A stretch of DNA of 32,023 nt from Chloroflexaceae bacterium (lineage in GTDB: Bacteria; Cyanobacteriota; Cyanobacteriia; Cyanobacteriales; JAAUTE01). A program made the translations under genes and the position numbers. Positions 3,137 through 9,220 of the stretch are shown here, piece by piece. The stretch spans positions 1 through 32,023 of the forward strand of contig JAAUTE010000011.1 in the NCBI GenBank assembly GCA_012031815.1, given 5' to 3'. The notes beneath the pieces are model-generated. The model worked only from the letters and a program-made list of their open reading frames with translations. It had not been told where the DNA came from and did no database searches. Each line of letters begins with the position of its first letter. The first letter of the stretch is position 1.

Positions 3137-3406
3137 ATGATTGCCTACGAAGCTTCTAACTTAATCGCCAATAGCCTGCAATACTTTTTGCAGATTTACA
3201 TGGTACTGATTATTATTCGCGTACTGCTGACCTGGTTTCAAACCACCGAATGGGCCAACAACGCCATTGACGTTCTCAGCCCCGTAACCGATCCCTACCT
3301 CAATATCTTTCGCTCTTTGATTCCACCCCTGGGAATGATGGATATTTCGCCAATTATTGCCATTTTTGTCCTGCAAATCCTGGCGGGACTCTTTCGGGGA
3401 TTTTAG
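3137..3406 (+). CDS. YggT family membrane protein
   Basis: An 89-residue protein with two hydrophobic segments (about residues 14-32 and 68-86) separated by a polar loop. The loop contains the family-typical VLSPVTDPYLNIFRSLIPP, and RVLLTWF precedes it. This is the YggT/Ycf19 arrangement found in cyanobacteria and plastids. Family members have been linked to thylakoid organisation, cell division and nucleoid distribution, but no enzymatic activity is known. It stands alone between the glycosyltransferase and a convergent gene, so the neighbourhood gives no further clue. The length matches the single-repeat form of the family. Confidence 0.9.
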   Translation: MIAYEASNLIANSLQYFLQIYMVLIIIRVLLTWFQTTEWANNAIDVLSPVTDPYLNIFRSLIPPLGMMDISPIIAIFVLQILAGLFRGF

Positions 3407-3453
3407 CCGTTCTACTGGGGAGGAAGAAGTGAATTGGAGAATTTTCGTTGATT

Positions 3454-3891
3454 TTAGCGAACTTTGCTAGAAAAACCAGAAGCTTTGAATTTTTCCAGCT
3501 TTAACGGCGTGGGTTGATTGCTCGCCACAGAAATTCGAATTTGAAAATCACTGACGCCCGGTGGAACGGCTTCTAGGGAACCGAGCCGATTGCGATTTTG
3601 CAGGACGGGATTGCCATTGGCATCGTAAATTCGGCCAAAAACATCGGCGTCATAGACGGTTTTGCCTGTGGGGTTGTTGGCTTTGCCGGTTACGAGAAAG
3701 CAGTTTGCGGGCAAGCTGCCGCCGCCGCTGGTGACCATGCCTTCCGCCAATTCCGGGGGACAGTCTTCATAGGTCAGATGGGACAGTTTAATGGGGGTGA
3801 GGGCTGCTGCTGGGGGCGCAAAACTCAAGCCCACACAAGACAACAATACTCCTAGACAAACGGCGATCGCGCTCAATTTAATCGATTTCAT
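3454..3891 (-). CDS. Secreted or lipid-anchored cyanobacterial hypothetical protein
   Basis: A 145-residue protein starting MKSIKLSAIAVCLG with a clear signal peptide. Cleavage after PPAAA is likely. An LLSC stretch at residues 16-19 could instead act as a lipobox, although leucine at -2 is not ideal. The mature part has two cysteines (DCPPEL and ANCFLV) that may form a disulfide. It is followed by a segment resembling an FxLYD-like beta sandwich (NNPTGKTVYDADVFGRIYD, then PPGVSDFQIRISV). I do not recognise a named family with certainty. The gene converges on yggT and has no operon partner. Likely periplasmic or envelope location; function unknown. Confidence 0.75.
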   Translation of the reverse strand: MKSIKLSAIAVCLGVLLSCVGLSFAPPAAALTPIKLSHLTYEDCPPELAEGMVTSGGGSLPANCFLVTGKANNPTGKTVYDADVFGRIYDANGNPVLQNRNRLGSLEAVPPGVSDFQIRISVASNQPTPLKLEKFKASGFSSKVR

Positions 3892-4028
3892 CTGGGAAAA
3901 GTCCTACCGCTAGCTCACCTTCAGCTTAGCGCGATTATGCCGCCAAGGTCAGCCCTGGGCCGTCCCCCGCGATCGCCTGGGAGAAGGGTTAAGTTAAGAG
4001 TAGGGCTTGGTTGAAACAGGGCTTTGCT

Positions 4029-4667
4029 ATGGATCGAGCCGAGATAGAAGCGGCGCTACAGTCAGCGTTTGTACAATGCGAACTGAATTTATGCCCCCTC
4101 AGTGAAGGACAGCAGCAAATTGTCCGCCTAGCTCTCTTGGCCGCTTTTTCCGGAGAGACAGCCAGCCTTTTGGGGGAGGAATCCCAGGACAATCCCCTGG
4201 ACGAACTCGATCCCCAACAGCGTCAAGCCTTGCTCGCCTTCATCACCGCCCACGAAAAGCGAGAGATTCCCTGGAAAATTAAGTTGCTCAACGATTGGCT
4301 GGGCGATCGCAATTCTGGCGAGGTGCAGTTTATTCGGGATATTTACGGGCTATCCTGGCTCAATCGCGTCCGTAAAGTTCATCTGGCTAAATACCTCGAT
4401 CCCGGCGATGCCAGCAGCAGTTTGCGCCTCAAAGTAGGCGATCGCATTGAGGTTTGCAACGGGCTATGGGAGTGGGTACAAGATGATGGCCCCTGTTCCC
4501 GCGAATGGTTTCCCTGTCAAGTGGTGGGGATTCGCGAGCTAGCGGAGGGAGAACTTAACTATACAAGCTGCATTATTCGCTTTGAAAGCGGCTTGGAATA
4601 TGAAATCCAAGGAATTTATCAATGGAATCGCTATAATTGGCGATTTCCCCAGGAAGAGACGCCCTAA
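4029..4667 (+). CDS. Conserved cyanobacterial hypothetical protein
   Basis: I take ATG 4029 (MDRAEIEAALQSAF) as the start rather than the TTG at 4011, giving 212 residues. The first half is helical and acidic (DPQQRQALLAFITAHEKREIPWKIKLLNDWL). The second half looks like a small beta domain binding no obvious cofactor (LRLKVGDRIEVCNGLWEWVQDDGPCSREWFPCQVVGI, later YEIQGIYQWNRYNWRF). There is no signal peptide or membrane segment, so it is probably cytosolic. I do not recognise its function. It lies in the same direction as the sbcD-like gene, 76 bases upstream, and may share its transcript. Confidence 0.75.
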   Translation: MDRAEIEAALQSAFVQCELNLCPLSEGQQQIVRLALLAAFSGETASLLGEESQDNPLDELDPQQRQALLAFITAHEKREIPWKIKLLNDWLGDRNSGEVQFIRDIYGLSWLNRVRKVHLAKYLDPGDASSSLRLKVGDRIEVCNGLWEWVQDDGPCSREWFPCQVVGIRELAEGELNYTSCIIRFESGLEYEIQGIYQWNRYNWRFPQEETP

Positions 4668-4743
4668 GCCCCATGCCTCCCTAAATTAGCAGCCTCAAAC
4701 AGGCTAAAATTCAGCCAAGGCAGCGCTAGTGGGGCGGAAAGTT

Positions 4744-6033
4744 ATGGCGATCAAGATTTTACATCTCTCCGATATTCATTTAGGCAGCGGTTTTGCCCAC
4801 GGTCGCCTTAACCAGGTGACCGGCTTAAATACGCGGCTGGAAGATTTTGTCACTGCCCTGCGGACTTGTATCGATCGCGCGATCGCCGAACCGGTAGATT
4901 TGGTGTTGTTTGGCGGGGATGCCTTTCCCGACGCGACGCCGCCGCCCTATGTCCACGAAGCCTTTGCCTCCCAGTTTCGCCGCCTGGCCGATGCTGAAAT
5001 TCCAACCGTGTTGTTGGTGGGCAACCACGACCAGCATTCCCAGGGCAGTGGCGGCGCGAGTTTGTGCCTGTACCGTACCCTGGCGGTTCCTGGATTTATC
5101 GTGGGCGATAGCCTGACGACCCATCGTCTGAAGACCCGCAACGGTCCGATTCAGGTGATTACCTTGCCCTGGTTGACCCATTCGGCGCTGCTGACCCGGC
5201 CGGAAACGGAAGGGTTGTCCCTGGCAGAAATCAATCAATTACTGATTCAGCGCTTGGAACCCGTCCTGGAAGCAGAAATTCGCCGCCTCGATCCCAATCT
5301 CCCTACGGTTTTGCTCGGCCATTTAATGTGCGATCGCGCCACCTTGGGAGCGGAGCGGTTCCTGGCGGTGGGCAAAGGTTTTACCCTGCCCCTGTCGCTG
5401 CTGTTGCGATCGCAATTGGATTATGTGGCCCTCGGTCACGTCCACAAACACCAAAACCTCAATCCCAGCAACGATCCCCCCGTCATTTATCCCGGCAGCA
5501 TTGAACGGGTGGATTTCAGCGAGGAGGGCGAAACTAAGGGCTATGTCCTAGCGGAAGTGGCTAAAGGGCAAGTTACCTGGGAATTTTGTCCCCTAGAGAC
5601 CCGTCCTTTCCTCACCATTACTCTGGATGTCTCCCAGGAAAGCCAGCCCCAAGGGGCCATTTTGGCGGCGATCGCCAAAGCCTCCCTGGAAGAAGCCGTA
5701 GCGCGAATAATTTACAAATTGCGTTCTGAACAGCTCGATCTCATTGATACGGCAGCGCTCCACGGGGCCCTCGCTTCTGCCCACAGTTACACCATCCGGC
5801 CAGAACTGCTCAGCCAACTGGCCCGGCCCCGCATCCCGGAACTGAGCGCGGGCAACAGTCTCGATCCCCTGCAAGCCCTGACGACTTACCTAAAAAACCG
5901 GGAAGAATTAAGCGATATTGCCAGCGATATGCTGGAAGCAGCCCAATATTTGCTGGCAGGGGAGGGGGAATGGTCGGGCAATGGGCAGGAAACCTTTCCC
6001 GTCGCCCCCTCTCAACAGTTGCGGCTGCTGTAG
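4744..6033 (+). CDS. SbcD-like DNA repair exonuclease (metallophosphoesterase)
   Basis: A 429-residue protein from ATG 4744; the GTG at 4729 in the track adds five unlikely residues. The calcineurin-like metal motifs appear in order: LSDIHLG near the start, GGDAF, GNHD, GHLM and GHVH. These residues bind the two metals used for phosphodiester hydrolysis. The order and length fit SbcD/Mre11-type nucleases, which work with an SbcC ATPase on hairpin and broken DNA ends. No sbcC lies in the window, so the partner, if any, is elsewhere. The C-terminal third is a helical region ending in a short polar tail. The reading frame is intact. Confidence 0.85.
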   Translation: MAIKILHLSDIHLGSGFAHGRLNQVTGLNTRLEDFVTALRTCIDRAIAEPVDLVLFGGDAFPDATPPPYVHEAFASQFRRLADAEIPTVLLVGNHDQHSQGSGGASLCLYRTLAVPGFIVGDSLTTHRLKTRNGPIQVITLPWLTHSALLTRPETEGLSLAEINQLLIQRLEPVLEAEIRRLDPNLPTVLLGHLMCDRATLGAERFLAVGKGFTLPLSLLLRSQLDYVALGHVHKHQNLNPSNDPPVIYPGSIERVDFSEEGETKGYVLAEVAKGQVTWEFCPLETRPFLTITLDVSQESQPQGAILAAIAKASLEEAVARIIYKLRSEQLDLIDTAALHGALASAHSYTIRPELLSQLARPRIPELSAGNSLDPLQALTTYLKNREELSDIASDMLEAAQYLLAGEGEWSGNGQETFPVAPSQQLRLL

Positions 6034-6073
6034 CTTTAAAACAGAAAATGTAGTTTCTCGGATTAGACACTCC

Positions 6074-7226
6074 ATGAAACGATTCCTGGCGATCGCCGTT
6101 AGCGTAGCCATTTTTGCTGCTCCTGTATTCTCAAGTCGATTTTGGCGAACTGCTGGCGGTGCTGGCCAACTGCGATCCCCTCTGGTTGGCGGTCAGTGTG
6201 GGCACAATCGTCCCCCTTACCCTAATAACGGCCTGGCGCTTGCAGCAATTGATGCCCCCAGCCAGCCCCTAGGTCCATTGGGAAGCAAATCGGCTAATTT
6301 TAGGAGCTTGCGTCCTGAATATGGTGCTGCCGTCCAAAATGGGCGATATTGCCAAAGCCTACTTCATGAGCGATCGCGGCCATTTGACGGGAACTCTGGC
6401 GCTAGCGCTGGTGGTGTTTGAGAAAACCTGCGATATGCTGTCCCTGCTGCTGTGGTGTGTTTTGGGACTGCTGTGCTATCCCCGCAAAGATGAGCTGTTT
6501 TGGCTGATGACCCTGGCGGTGGCCGGAGGATTAATCCTCGGATTGGTGCTGCTGGCCTCCCGATCCTTTGCCGATGGCTTTTTTCACCTAGGCAAACAAA
6601 TCTCTCCCCAGGGTTTAAAGAAGAAACTAGGCAGCTTGCAGGCATCCTGGGGGGAAATGCACGCTTATTTTTGGCAGGATAAGTGGCAGCTTACTAAAAT
6701 TGTCATTACCTCTATTTTTCTCTGGTTTTTACACTTATTGCAAATCTGGTTATTTGTCTTGGCCCTAAAAGCCTGGGTTCCCTTTATGGCCAACCTCGCC
6801 CTGTCTCCCCTGTCAATCTTGGCGGGGTTACTGCCGTTAACCTTTGCGGGTGTGGGAACCCGTGACGCCGCTATTGTTTGGTTTTATGAGCCTTATTTGA
6901 CGACTACAACGGCCATTGCCCTAGGATTACTCTGTACCTCCCGCTATTTTCTGCCGGCTTTGGTGGGCCTGCCCTTGCTCGGTGAAATGCTCAGCGCTGT
7001 CAAAAACTCAACCGAGCCAACTCTTAAAATGCGATTGCCATTACCGTTAGAGAATGGTCAGGGCCATATCTGTATCGCAAAATTTAATATCAGTGCCGCT
7101 ATTATTTTTGATTGTGCCATCAAGTTTCAGCAGATCTTGATCGGCAGAGACAAAAATGTCAGCATCAAAGATGATAGCACTGGCAACATGAAGCGCATCA
7201 GCCGCGCGTATTCCCTTAATTTGTAA
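6074..7226 (+). pseudogene. Flippase-like (lysylphosphatidylglycerol synthase TM-region / UPF0104) gene, frameshifted, with in-frame stop and replaced 3' end
   Basis: ATG 6074 opens MKRFLAIAVSVAI. The frame then breaks at a TTTTT run (6111-6115). Removing one T gives a continuation with LYSQVDFGELLAVL and, later, NMVLPSKMGDIAKAYFMSDRG, the hallmark of this integral membrane family. A second lesion, TAG at 6270-6272, lies in the restored frame just before VHWEANRLILGA. It could be a nonsense change or a pair of compensating indels. The membrane domain runs to LVGLPLLGEMLSAV near 7010. The last 60 or so residues are antisense translation of the PIN gene, so the native end has been lost. Family members are polytopic proteins proposed to move lipids or lipid-linked intermediates. 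Several lesions make a genuine pseudogene more plausible here than elsewhere in the window. Confidence 0.75.
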
Positions 7227-7604
7227 ATCTAAACACTTTAGCTGAACTTTCACGGTTGCCGCCGTAAGGTCGAGGATACTAATGCTAAAAAAATCTGCAA
7301 TAATCTTAGTCTGTGGCACAATAGAGCGAGCGATAAAAACTCGAAAGGTACTAGCATTATCAATTCCTCTGGCAACTGAGGTATGAATAAGTTCTTTAAA
7401 TACAGCTTCTTCGAGTTCATAATAAATCAGGCATGATGTTGCTCCTAAGTGAGAGGAAGCAATCTTTTTAAAAAGTATCTTTGCATCTTCAAATAATATT
7501 TGAGGCTGACGGCCTCGGCGCAGCCCTTTTCGTAAGGTGGGAACTGCTTGTGCGGAACCACACAGATAATCCAGGAAAATCCCTGTGTCGAGATAAACGT
7601 TCAC
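7047..7604 (-). CDS. PIN-domain protein (second gene of a PIN-PIN pair)
   Basis: A 185-residue protein starting with GTG and sharing a 4-base GTGA overlap with the stop of the upstream PIN gene, which suggests translational coupling. All expected acidic residues of a PIN ribonuclease fold are visible: D6 in VYLDTGIFLDYL, E63 in LIYYELEEAVF, D136 in IRAADALHVASA, and D155 or D157 in VSADQDLLKLD. PIN proteins are Mg2+-dependent RNases, many of them VapC-type toxins. No antitoxin-like gene (RHH, AbrB or Phd type) is next to it. Its 3' end overlaps the readthrough tail of the flippase-like gene on the other strand by 180 bases. The region has no HIP1 sites, consistent with recent arrival. Confidence 0.85.
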   Translation of the reverse strand: MNVYLDTGIFLDYLCGSAQAVPTLRKGLRRGRQPQILFEDAKILFKKIASSHLGATSCLIYYELEEAVFKELIHTSVARGIDNASTFRVFIARSIVPQTKIIADFFSISILDLTAATVKVQLKCLDLQIKGIRAADALHVASAIIFDADIFVSADQDLLKLDGTIKNNSGTDIKFCDTDMALTIL

Positions 7605-8113
7605 ACCTTACTCCCAAGTTCAACTAGCAGTTCTTCCGGGGTAACGACTTGCGGCTTTCCAATTGAAAGAGAGTTTAAAGCGTTTTTTAATTGCCCATCA
7701 TCACTCACTAAATAATCGCACTCAGCAGCACTGCTTAAAATCAAAATATCGTTGGAGTGAGCAATGCGATCACGAAGGAGTGGAGCATGAGCTAGATATT
7801 CCTCGGCTTTCTCAAGATTCAAGGGTAGCAGAATAATTTCTGGATCTAGCGACTCCTCTAAACCCGAAATGCGAATTGTATTAATTTCTTGTACAAGTGA
7901 CCCAATACCCATCATTGGTTGACCCAATCTTTCTAGAAAAAGCAGTTCCTGAAGCACGACAGGATTAACAGCGAACCTTAATTTTTTCCCCATTTCATCA
8001 AACAAAAACCGAAAACTCGCCTTTCTTGTGGGTTCAAGCTCCTGCCTGTGCAAATAGTCATCTAAAACGTCTGTGTCTAAAAAAATAAAGGGTTTGCCGT
8101 TATGGTGCTGCAT
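7601..8113 (-). CDS. PIN-domain protein (first gene of a PIN-PIN pair)
   Basis: A 170-residue protein from ATG 8113. PIN-fold acidic residues can be assigned: D13 in FIFLDTDVLDDYL, E56 in NPVVLQELLFL, D122 in AHSNDILILSSA, and D138 in YLVSDDGQLKNAL. It therefore looks catalytically complete, although the sequence diverges from typical VapC. It is the promoter-proximal gene of a two-gene operon with the second PIN gene. The roughly 160 bases upstream, before the divergent deacetylase gene, contain no further ORF, so a conventional upstream antitoxin is absent. One PIN protein might inhibit the other, or both might act on RNA together; this is inference only. Confidence 0.8.
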   Translation of the reverse strand: MQHHNGKPFIFLDTDVLDDYLHRQELEPTRKASFRFLFDEMGKKLRFAVNPVVLQELLFLERLGQPMMGIGSLVQEINTIRISGLEESLDPEIILLPLNLEKAEEYLAHAPLLRDRIAHSNDILILSSAAECDYLVSDDGQLKNALNSLSIGKPQVVTPEELLVELGSKV

Positions 8114-8272
8114 TTTGGCATTTCTTAGCGCGTTGGTTTCTCTTTTAGTTTAAACTATCGGCTGTGTGCCTAGCATGCTAAAAAATCAACAAACCTCCCC
8201 CTCAGCGATCGCACCATCGACTTACACTAAAAAATAGACCCAGCCACCGCCTCTCACCCCTTGGCAAGCCCC

Positions 8273-9220
8273 ATGTTTCCCCTTATCTACTCCGACAAAT
8301 TCCTCCAGCACGATACCAACTTTTTCAAGCAGGCTACAGGCGGCTACCATCCCGAATGCAGCGATCGCCTGATAGCCATTGTGAAAGCGCTCAAAACGGC
8401 TCCCTGGGCTGACCAATTGGATTGGCAGCGGCCAACGCCCCTAGCAGAGCGGGATGTGATGCCCTGGTTGCAGCAAGTTCACGACCATCGCTACATCGAG
8501 CAGTTACAAAACATGGCCGCCAAGGGCGGTGGTTTGCTGGATTGGGATACTCCTGTATCGCCTCAGAGCTACGACGTGGCCCTGCTGGCGGTTAATGCTT
8601 GGTTAGATGGCGTCGATCGCGTTCTTTCAACCCAGGGGCCCGCTTTCGTGTTAGCCCGTCCTCCCGGCCACCACGCCACCCGCGAACAGGGCATGGGCTT
8701 TTGCCTCCTCTCCAATGGGGCGATCGCGGCCCAATATGCCCTAGCGCAGCCAAATATCAAGCGAGTTGCCATCCTAGACTGGGACGTACATCACGGCAAC
8801 GGCACCGAGGCGATCGTCCAATCCCATCCTCAAATTGTTTATTGCTCCCTCCATCAATCCCCTTGCTATCCCGGAACCGGGCGCAGCCAAGACCGTGGCC
8901 AGTTCAACAACGTCCTCAATCTGCCCATGTCCCCCGGCAGTAGTTTCAATGAATACCAGCCCGCTTTTGAGCAAAAAGTAGTGCCGTTTCTCAGCAACTT
9001 CGCCCCTGACCTGCTAATTATCAGTGCTGGTTACGACGGCAATCATGACGATCCCCTGGCAGAAATTGCGCTAAAGCCCCGTGATTTTGGCACATTTACC
9101 GAGTATTGCCTGGAAATCACCCCCAAAATCCTTTTTGGGCTGGAAGGCGGCTACGACCTCAACTCCCTCTCCCAATCTGTCTTAGCCACGGTTGAGAGCT
9201 GTTTGAATTTCGTTAATTGA
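8273..9220 (+). CDS. Histone deacetylase family (AcuC/HDAC-like) deacetylase
   Basis: A 315-residue protein from ATG 8273 (MFPLIYSDKF); the TTG at 8261 is less likely. Zn-dependent deacetylase signatures are all present: HPECSDRL near the N-terminus, RPPGHHA with the paired catalytic histidines, DWDVHHGNGT with metal-binding Asp and His, SAGYDGNHDDPL with the second metal Asp, and LEGGYDL at the end. Bacterial members deacetylate small molecules such as polyamines, or proteins; the substrate here cannot be told from sequence. It is divergent from the PIN pair and monocistronic as far as can be seen. The frame is intact and length is normal. Confidence 0.92.
   Translation: MFPLIYSDKFLQHDTNFFKQATGGYHPECSDRLIAIVKALKTAPWADQLDWQRPTPLAERDVMPWLQQVHDHRYIEQLQNMAAKGGGLLDWDTPVSPQSYDVALLAVNAWLDGVDRVLSTQGPAFVLARPPGHHATREQGMGFCLLSNGAIAAQYALAQPNIKRVAILDWDVHHGNGTEAIVQSHPQIVYCSLHQSPCYPGTGRSQDRGQFNNVLNLPMSPGSSFNEYQPAFEQKVVPFLSNFAPDLLIISAGYDGNHDDPLAEIALKPRDFGTFTEYCLEITPKILFGLEGGYDLNSLSQSVLATVESCLNFVN

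Follow-up and report, generated by a model that had tools for sequence, protein, structure and literature searches.

What might two overlapping PIN-domain genes do when they carry no antitoxin? Among the toxin families of prokaryotes, PIN nucleases rank with the largest, and they are usually seen as a VapC protein together with a DNA-binding antitoxin. The window analyzed here is a stretch of 32,023 nucleotides (nt) from a draft genome labeled Chloroflexaceae bacterium and placed by GTDB in the Cyanobacteriota (contig JAAUTE010000011.1). On its minus strand lie PIN-A (8113..7601, ATG start, 170 amino acids [aa]) and PIN-B (7604..7047, GTG start, 185 aa). The stop codon of the first gene and the start codon of the second share the 4-nt sequence GTGA at 7601..7604 (minus strand), and we infer that translation of the two genes is coupled through it. 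A first-pass annotation of the sequence had proposed the overlapping pair, the retention of active-site acids in both proteins, and the lack of an upstream antitoxin; all three proposals held. In the source genome, a 3.8-Mb draft, PIN-B occurs once and the PIN-A family has a single full member.

Both window proteins are too distant from PF01850 to pass its cut-off, a difference from VapC: PIN-A has no Pfam match, and PIN-B reaches E = 0.0019, under the curated threshold. Among their relatives, 21 of 22 PIN-A and 19 of 19 PIN-B family members match Pfam PIN. AlphaFold2 gave PIN-A alone a PIN fold with a predicted local distance difference test score (pLDDT) of 77.5 and low confidence at residues 66–89, and both domains are PIN folds in the joined AlphaFold model described below. 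Structure searches of the PDB with these models returned VapC and other PIN proteins. Because the relatives match Pfam, the models match PIN structures, and the acids align, we assign both proteins to the PIN-domain superfamily, each having the fold and the four acids.

The active-site acids of PIN-A are D13 and E56 (22/22 each), D122 (21/22), and D139 (20/22), and those of PIN-B (D6, E63, D136, and D155) are invariant across 19 members. PIN-B also has a conserved basic insert, LR...RRGR, at residues 24–32, along with invariant D40 and H52. PIN-A carries a near-invariant motif, LRNRxxHSND, at residues 113–122 (window ~7777–7748, minus strand), whose H119 is invariant though it lies outside the four PIN acids. 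As a separate observation, this motif is similar to the R-x4-H motif found in HEPN ribonucleases, and 7/22 members have weak HEPN_RiboL-PSP matches. The window copy of PIN-A has two in-frame insertions (~6 and ~16 aa) that are absent from all relatives, the second of which falls in the low-confidence stretch of the model. Profile comparison of PIN-A with PIN-B (probability 46%, E = 2e-4) suggests that the two families are distant paralogues. The PIN-like proteins HARP and PRORP (protein-only RNase P) were among the weaker PDB fold matches of PIN-A, but they superpose poorly (TM-score ~0.4), form different oligomers, and gave no match in a PDB sequence search.

To place the pair among other genomes, we scanned a PIN-B alignment against 84,980 species genomes and obtained 20 loci with 37–65% identity. 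The carriers are cyanobacteria, Acidobacteria (Bryobacterales, Solibacteraceae, Angelobacter, Chloracidobacterium, and others), one Chloroflexi metagenome-assembled genome (MAG), and one Lokiarchaeota MAG; the last two cases are single contigs each, for which misbinning is possible. A PIN-A relative lies directly upstream of PIN-B, on the same strand and in the same order, in 20/20 loci. Thus the conserved PIN–PIN pairs that the first-pass annotation had suggested looking for do exist. The spacing between the genes is −4 (the commonest), −1, +1, +6, +9, or +13 nt, and the −4 overlap of the window recurs at eight loci (L017, L018, L019, L026, L028, L030, L032, and L033). The genome G115 also carries the pair, and in G097 both genes persist as a decayed remnant.

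Searches that started from PIN-A led to the same place. Its profile found four intact members and the G097 remnant in 291 cyanobacterial genomes, all of them beside PIN-B, with members scoring at least 124 bits and the next matches at most 35 bits; a PIN-B search of cyanobacterial genomes recovered the same four. In genomes sampled from the phyla to which the other carriers belong (347 for Acidobacteria, 196 for Lokiarchaeota, and 251 for Chloroflexi), PIN-A was found in the carrier alone, and in 15/15 carrier genomes the paired copy is the sole PIN-A family member. No unpaired PIN-A family member was found in the cyanobacterial, three-phylum, or carrier-genome samples. The searches from both sides therefore describe a PIN–PIN pair that is rare and sporadic, and inseparable within the genomes sampled. 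Weaker cyanobacterial PIN matches (L011–L015 and L061–L080) were considered as additional pairs and rejected, being ordinary PIN proteins in other contexts. We also rejected the idea that the pair is plasmid or phage cargo, as tblastn found nothing in 72,556 plasmid records and 2.9 million viral contigs gave no match.

Both genes are maintained as proteins. In close pairs, nonsynonymous divergence (dN) is ~0.06–0.26 against synonymous divergence (dS) of ~0.5 to saturation for each gene, and because dN is far below dS, we conclude that PIN-A and PIN-B are under purifying selection. These values and the orthologous pairs at 20 further loci rule out chance open reading frames (ORFs). Over 19 pairs, the pairwise divergences of the two proteins are tightly correlated (r = 0.957, Mantel P = 1e-4, best permutation 0.67), and the genes therefore move as a unit.

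The surroundings of that unit change. The neighbors include DUF554, 2-phosphosulfolactate phosphatase, MiaE with ribonucleotide reductase, prolyl oligopeptidase, an outer-membrane barrel, and others, and at one locus (L019) the pair lies between two cobalamin biosynthesis genes. Since the neighbors differ at every locus, the pair is a mobile, stand-alone two-gene cassette. These observations bear on an alternative in which two VapC-like toxins, or two independent housekeeping RNases, were joined by chance and any antitoxins are encoded elsewhere. The VapC-type PIN fold of both proteins would suit such an origin. We nevertheless give it very little credence, as the pair has been kept down to ~37–44% PIN-B identity and across phyla while its neighbors were lost, neither family was found alone, and the 20/20 pairing contradicts it.

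We then looked for the antitoxin that a VapBC operon would lead one to expect. The divergent intergenic region ahead of PIN-A (8114..8260) accommodates no antitoxin ORF. All ORFs of at least 25 aa within 500 nt upstream or downstream of the pair were compared all-against-all across 22 loci, and no conserved small ORF emerged; the only matches were trivial ones between close relatives or to the 5′ ends of PIN-A. A missed antitoxin was rejected because no small ORF is common to the 22 loci, and a 64-aa HicB-like ORF was rejected as a candidate because it lies upstream of the pair in G115 alone, the other loci being without it. That ORF (L003 1210–1404, plus strand) is itself solitary, with no HicA seen nearby. 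In the search for an RNA antitoxin, 6900–8400, which includes the intergenic region, had no Rfam match at E ≤ 0.5, and no repeat array was found upstream of PIN-A; a novel antisense RNA is possible.

Other PIN genes of cyanobacteria served as a control. Weak PIN-A matches in other cyanobacterial genomes with readable context nearly all have a small partner ORF, of 66–98 aa directly upstream or 71–131 aa directly downstream. These ordinary genes (controls L062–L078) resemble the pair in being PIN nucleases of 130–150 aa in small operons, but they mostly have an adjacent small partner, which the PIN–PIN family does not. The absence of such a partner is thus a property of the family. The first-pass annotation had anticipated that homologues might mostly stand singly beside standard antitoxins, or that an antitoxin had been overlooked; neither turned out to be so.

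How, then, might the two proteins work? We favor, with a probability of roughly one half, a mutually dependent heteromeric PIN ribonuclease whose two subunits act together. Because this exact pair travels as a unit through distant hosts, we presume that the proteins work only together, and their co-function is well supported. In the proposed mechanism, the cassette would encode two deeply diverged PIN-domain subunits that act jointly. VapC-type PIN domains usually dimerize; here, the halves of the dimer would be supplied by two genes and would form a heteromeric metal-dependent endoribonuclease. Its activity or its safety would depend on both chains being present in proportion, and the overlapping genes would secure that proportion by coupled translation. 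PIN-B, the more conserved protein, would probably be the main nuclease, with PIN-A completing, positioning, or restraining it. Such a design could account for behavior like that of a toxin–antitoxin system (few and scattered carriers, a single copy in each genome, and unrelated neighbors) without a classical antitoxin.

A precedent for a composite nuclease comes from eukaryotic nonsense-mediated decay, where the paralogous PIN domains of SMG5 and SMG6 join as a composite PIN (cPIN) endonuclease in which one domain contributes an acid and RNA contacts (PMC12923823). We infer that PIN-A and PIN-B, too, associate physically. SMG5 and SMG6 are multidomain proteins of eukaryotes that UPF1 recruits, and SMG5 has an inactive PIN domain (PMC12923823), whereas PIN-A and PIN-B are single-domain prokaryotic proteins that both keep their acid sets. 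As an analogy, the SMG5–SMG6 composite PIN is the closest concept to the proposed ribonuclease.

Several observations weigh against a heteromeric ribonuclease. Modeling of the heterodimer, a check proposed by the first-pass annotation, succeeded in part. The joined model was built from a read-through of one locus (L016) in which PIN-A, its stop codon read as Gly, three further residues, and PIN-B form one chain; its alignment had 37 rows, including two stop-read-through rows, and the row set was chosen by script for correct alignment. Both domains were confidently folded (pLDDT 89.7; 148 and 183 residues), but the predicted TM-score (pTM) of 0.62 is about the value for two well-folded, loosely oriented domains, which we estimate at roughly 0.55–0.6 for 148 + 183 residues oriented independently. 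The model does not fix the interface, and its linker is artificial. In addition, the fourth acid of PIN-A (D139) is Asn in 2/22 members (L023 and L027) and the third (D122) is lost in 1/22. Fixed adjacency would also be expected were PIN-A merely an inhibitor of PIN-B.

That last point leads to the alternative of a toxin-fold antitoxin, in which PIN-A takes the place of VapB and forms an inactive heterodimer with a toxic nuclease, PIN-B, much as a VapC-like homodimer would be poisoned by a diverged paralogue. We hold this as possible, though only tentatively. PIN-A stands first in the pair, the position usually held by an antitoxin; the distribution is sporadic, and PIN-A is less conserved than PIN-B (43% versus 53% mean identity to the window). 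The decay of some copies points the same way: PIN-B is frameshifted at two loci (L032 and L034) and truncated at a third (L035), PIN-A is open in all three, and the reverse was not seen among these loci, which were found by PIN-B search. This is what would be expected if PIN-B alone were harmful, and the pattern hints at a harmful PIN-B made tolerable by PIN-A. However, there are only three broken copies, and the changes in L032 and L034 are of 1–2 nt in MAGs and may be assembly errors. Only a remnant of the two genes survives in G097. A decayed pair was noted in a single-contig cyanobacterial genome (L006 1483–1900), where PIN-B stops after ~22 recognizable residues and PIN-A has lost its C-terminal half by internal deletion while keeping its last residues.

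Other features of PIN-A fit an inhibitor less well. A pure inhibitor could dispense with the active-site acids, but in PIN-A D13 and E56, like H119, never vary, and D122 is kept in 21/22 members. PIN-A is a full PIN fold of 146–170 aa without a DNA-binding domain, and no inverted repeat of the operator-palindrome type is shared by seven upstream regions, although this short scan was too limited to exclude an operator. Because the acids of PIN-A are preserved, we favor an active or composite PIN-A over a mere inhibitor. Taking both explanations together, we consider it rather probable that the pair is either a composite PIN ribonuclease without an antitoxin, with copies in bacteria and one Lokiarchaeota assembly, or a toxin with a toxin-related antitoxin.

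The first-pass annotation had listed a heteromeric RNase, mutual inhibition, and a two-part defense module as possible meanings. While co-function is borne out, defense gained no special support. It would require two nucleases with the same or successive RNA targets that remain silent until triggered by stress or phage, and we think it improbable. The cassette-like mobility of the pair would fit such a role, and the Lokiarchaeota copy (L026) adjoins a GmrSD_N/HEC-05 defense gene (3401–4873, minus strand). Against this, neither window protein matches a PADLOC model (or an NCBIfam model), neither has a sensor domain, the neighbors identified at other loci are housekeeping or structural genes, and the pair is missing from the viral contigs and plasmids searched.

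The immediate context of the window copy offers some hints about its expression and arrival. Across the intergenic region from PIN-A, a divergent histone-deacetylase-like ORF (PF00850) begins at 8261. The sequence TAAACT at 8147..8152 (minus strand), 34 nt ahead of the PIN-A start codon, is a possible −10 element; TAxAxT occurs at the corresponding position in eight other cyanobacterial loci in an alignment read by eye, and this element is probably the promoter, although TAAACT is not among the elements listed by a consensus promoter scan. On the other side, a convergent LPG-synthase-like ORF (6321..7226) has a C-terminal tail antisense to PIN-B, and its relatives align only to residue ~228–265, i.e. 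window ~7005–7115. It is as though the cassette had been attached where this gene ends. No exact empty site was seen, as relatives with both flanking genes have them far apart or on separate contigs. The gene itself (LPG_synthase_TM-like, 6060–7226, plus strand) appears broken: the domain match in ORF 6321..7226 starts at profile position 83, and an upstream piece lies at 6114..6272 in the same frame.

Among known systems, VapBC is the obvious comparison. Like it, the PIN–PIN pair is a small, bicistronic, sporadic, mobile module of overlapping genes with the PIN fold and four acids, and VapC proteins are the best solved structural matches of the models. Unlike it, the pair has no adjacent VapB, RHH, AbrB, Phd, or other antitoxin, and the place of the partner is taken by another PIN protein that has active-site residues of its own. 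We found no prokaryotic PIN–PIN bicistron in the literature searched, though an earlier mention in the PIN superfamily classification (10.1093/nar/gkx494) is possible; term searches of a 2009 survey of type II toxin–antitoxin systems (PMC2701414) and of TASmania (PMC6504116) returned none. The parts, PIN domains, are known, and their arrangement here appears to be new.

Annotating each gene as a lone VapC would miss the real two-gene unit. As a strictly conserved bicistron without an antitoxin, the PIN–PIN pair is a simple two-protein system for asking whether PIN domains control or complete one another, the same question that SMG5–SMG6 raises in eukaryotic RNA decay. If the favored explanation is true, the cassette would be a transferable, antitoxin-free composite PIN module, parallel in design to the eukaryotic SMG5–SMG6 nuclease.
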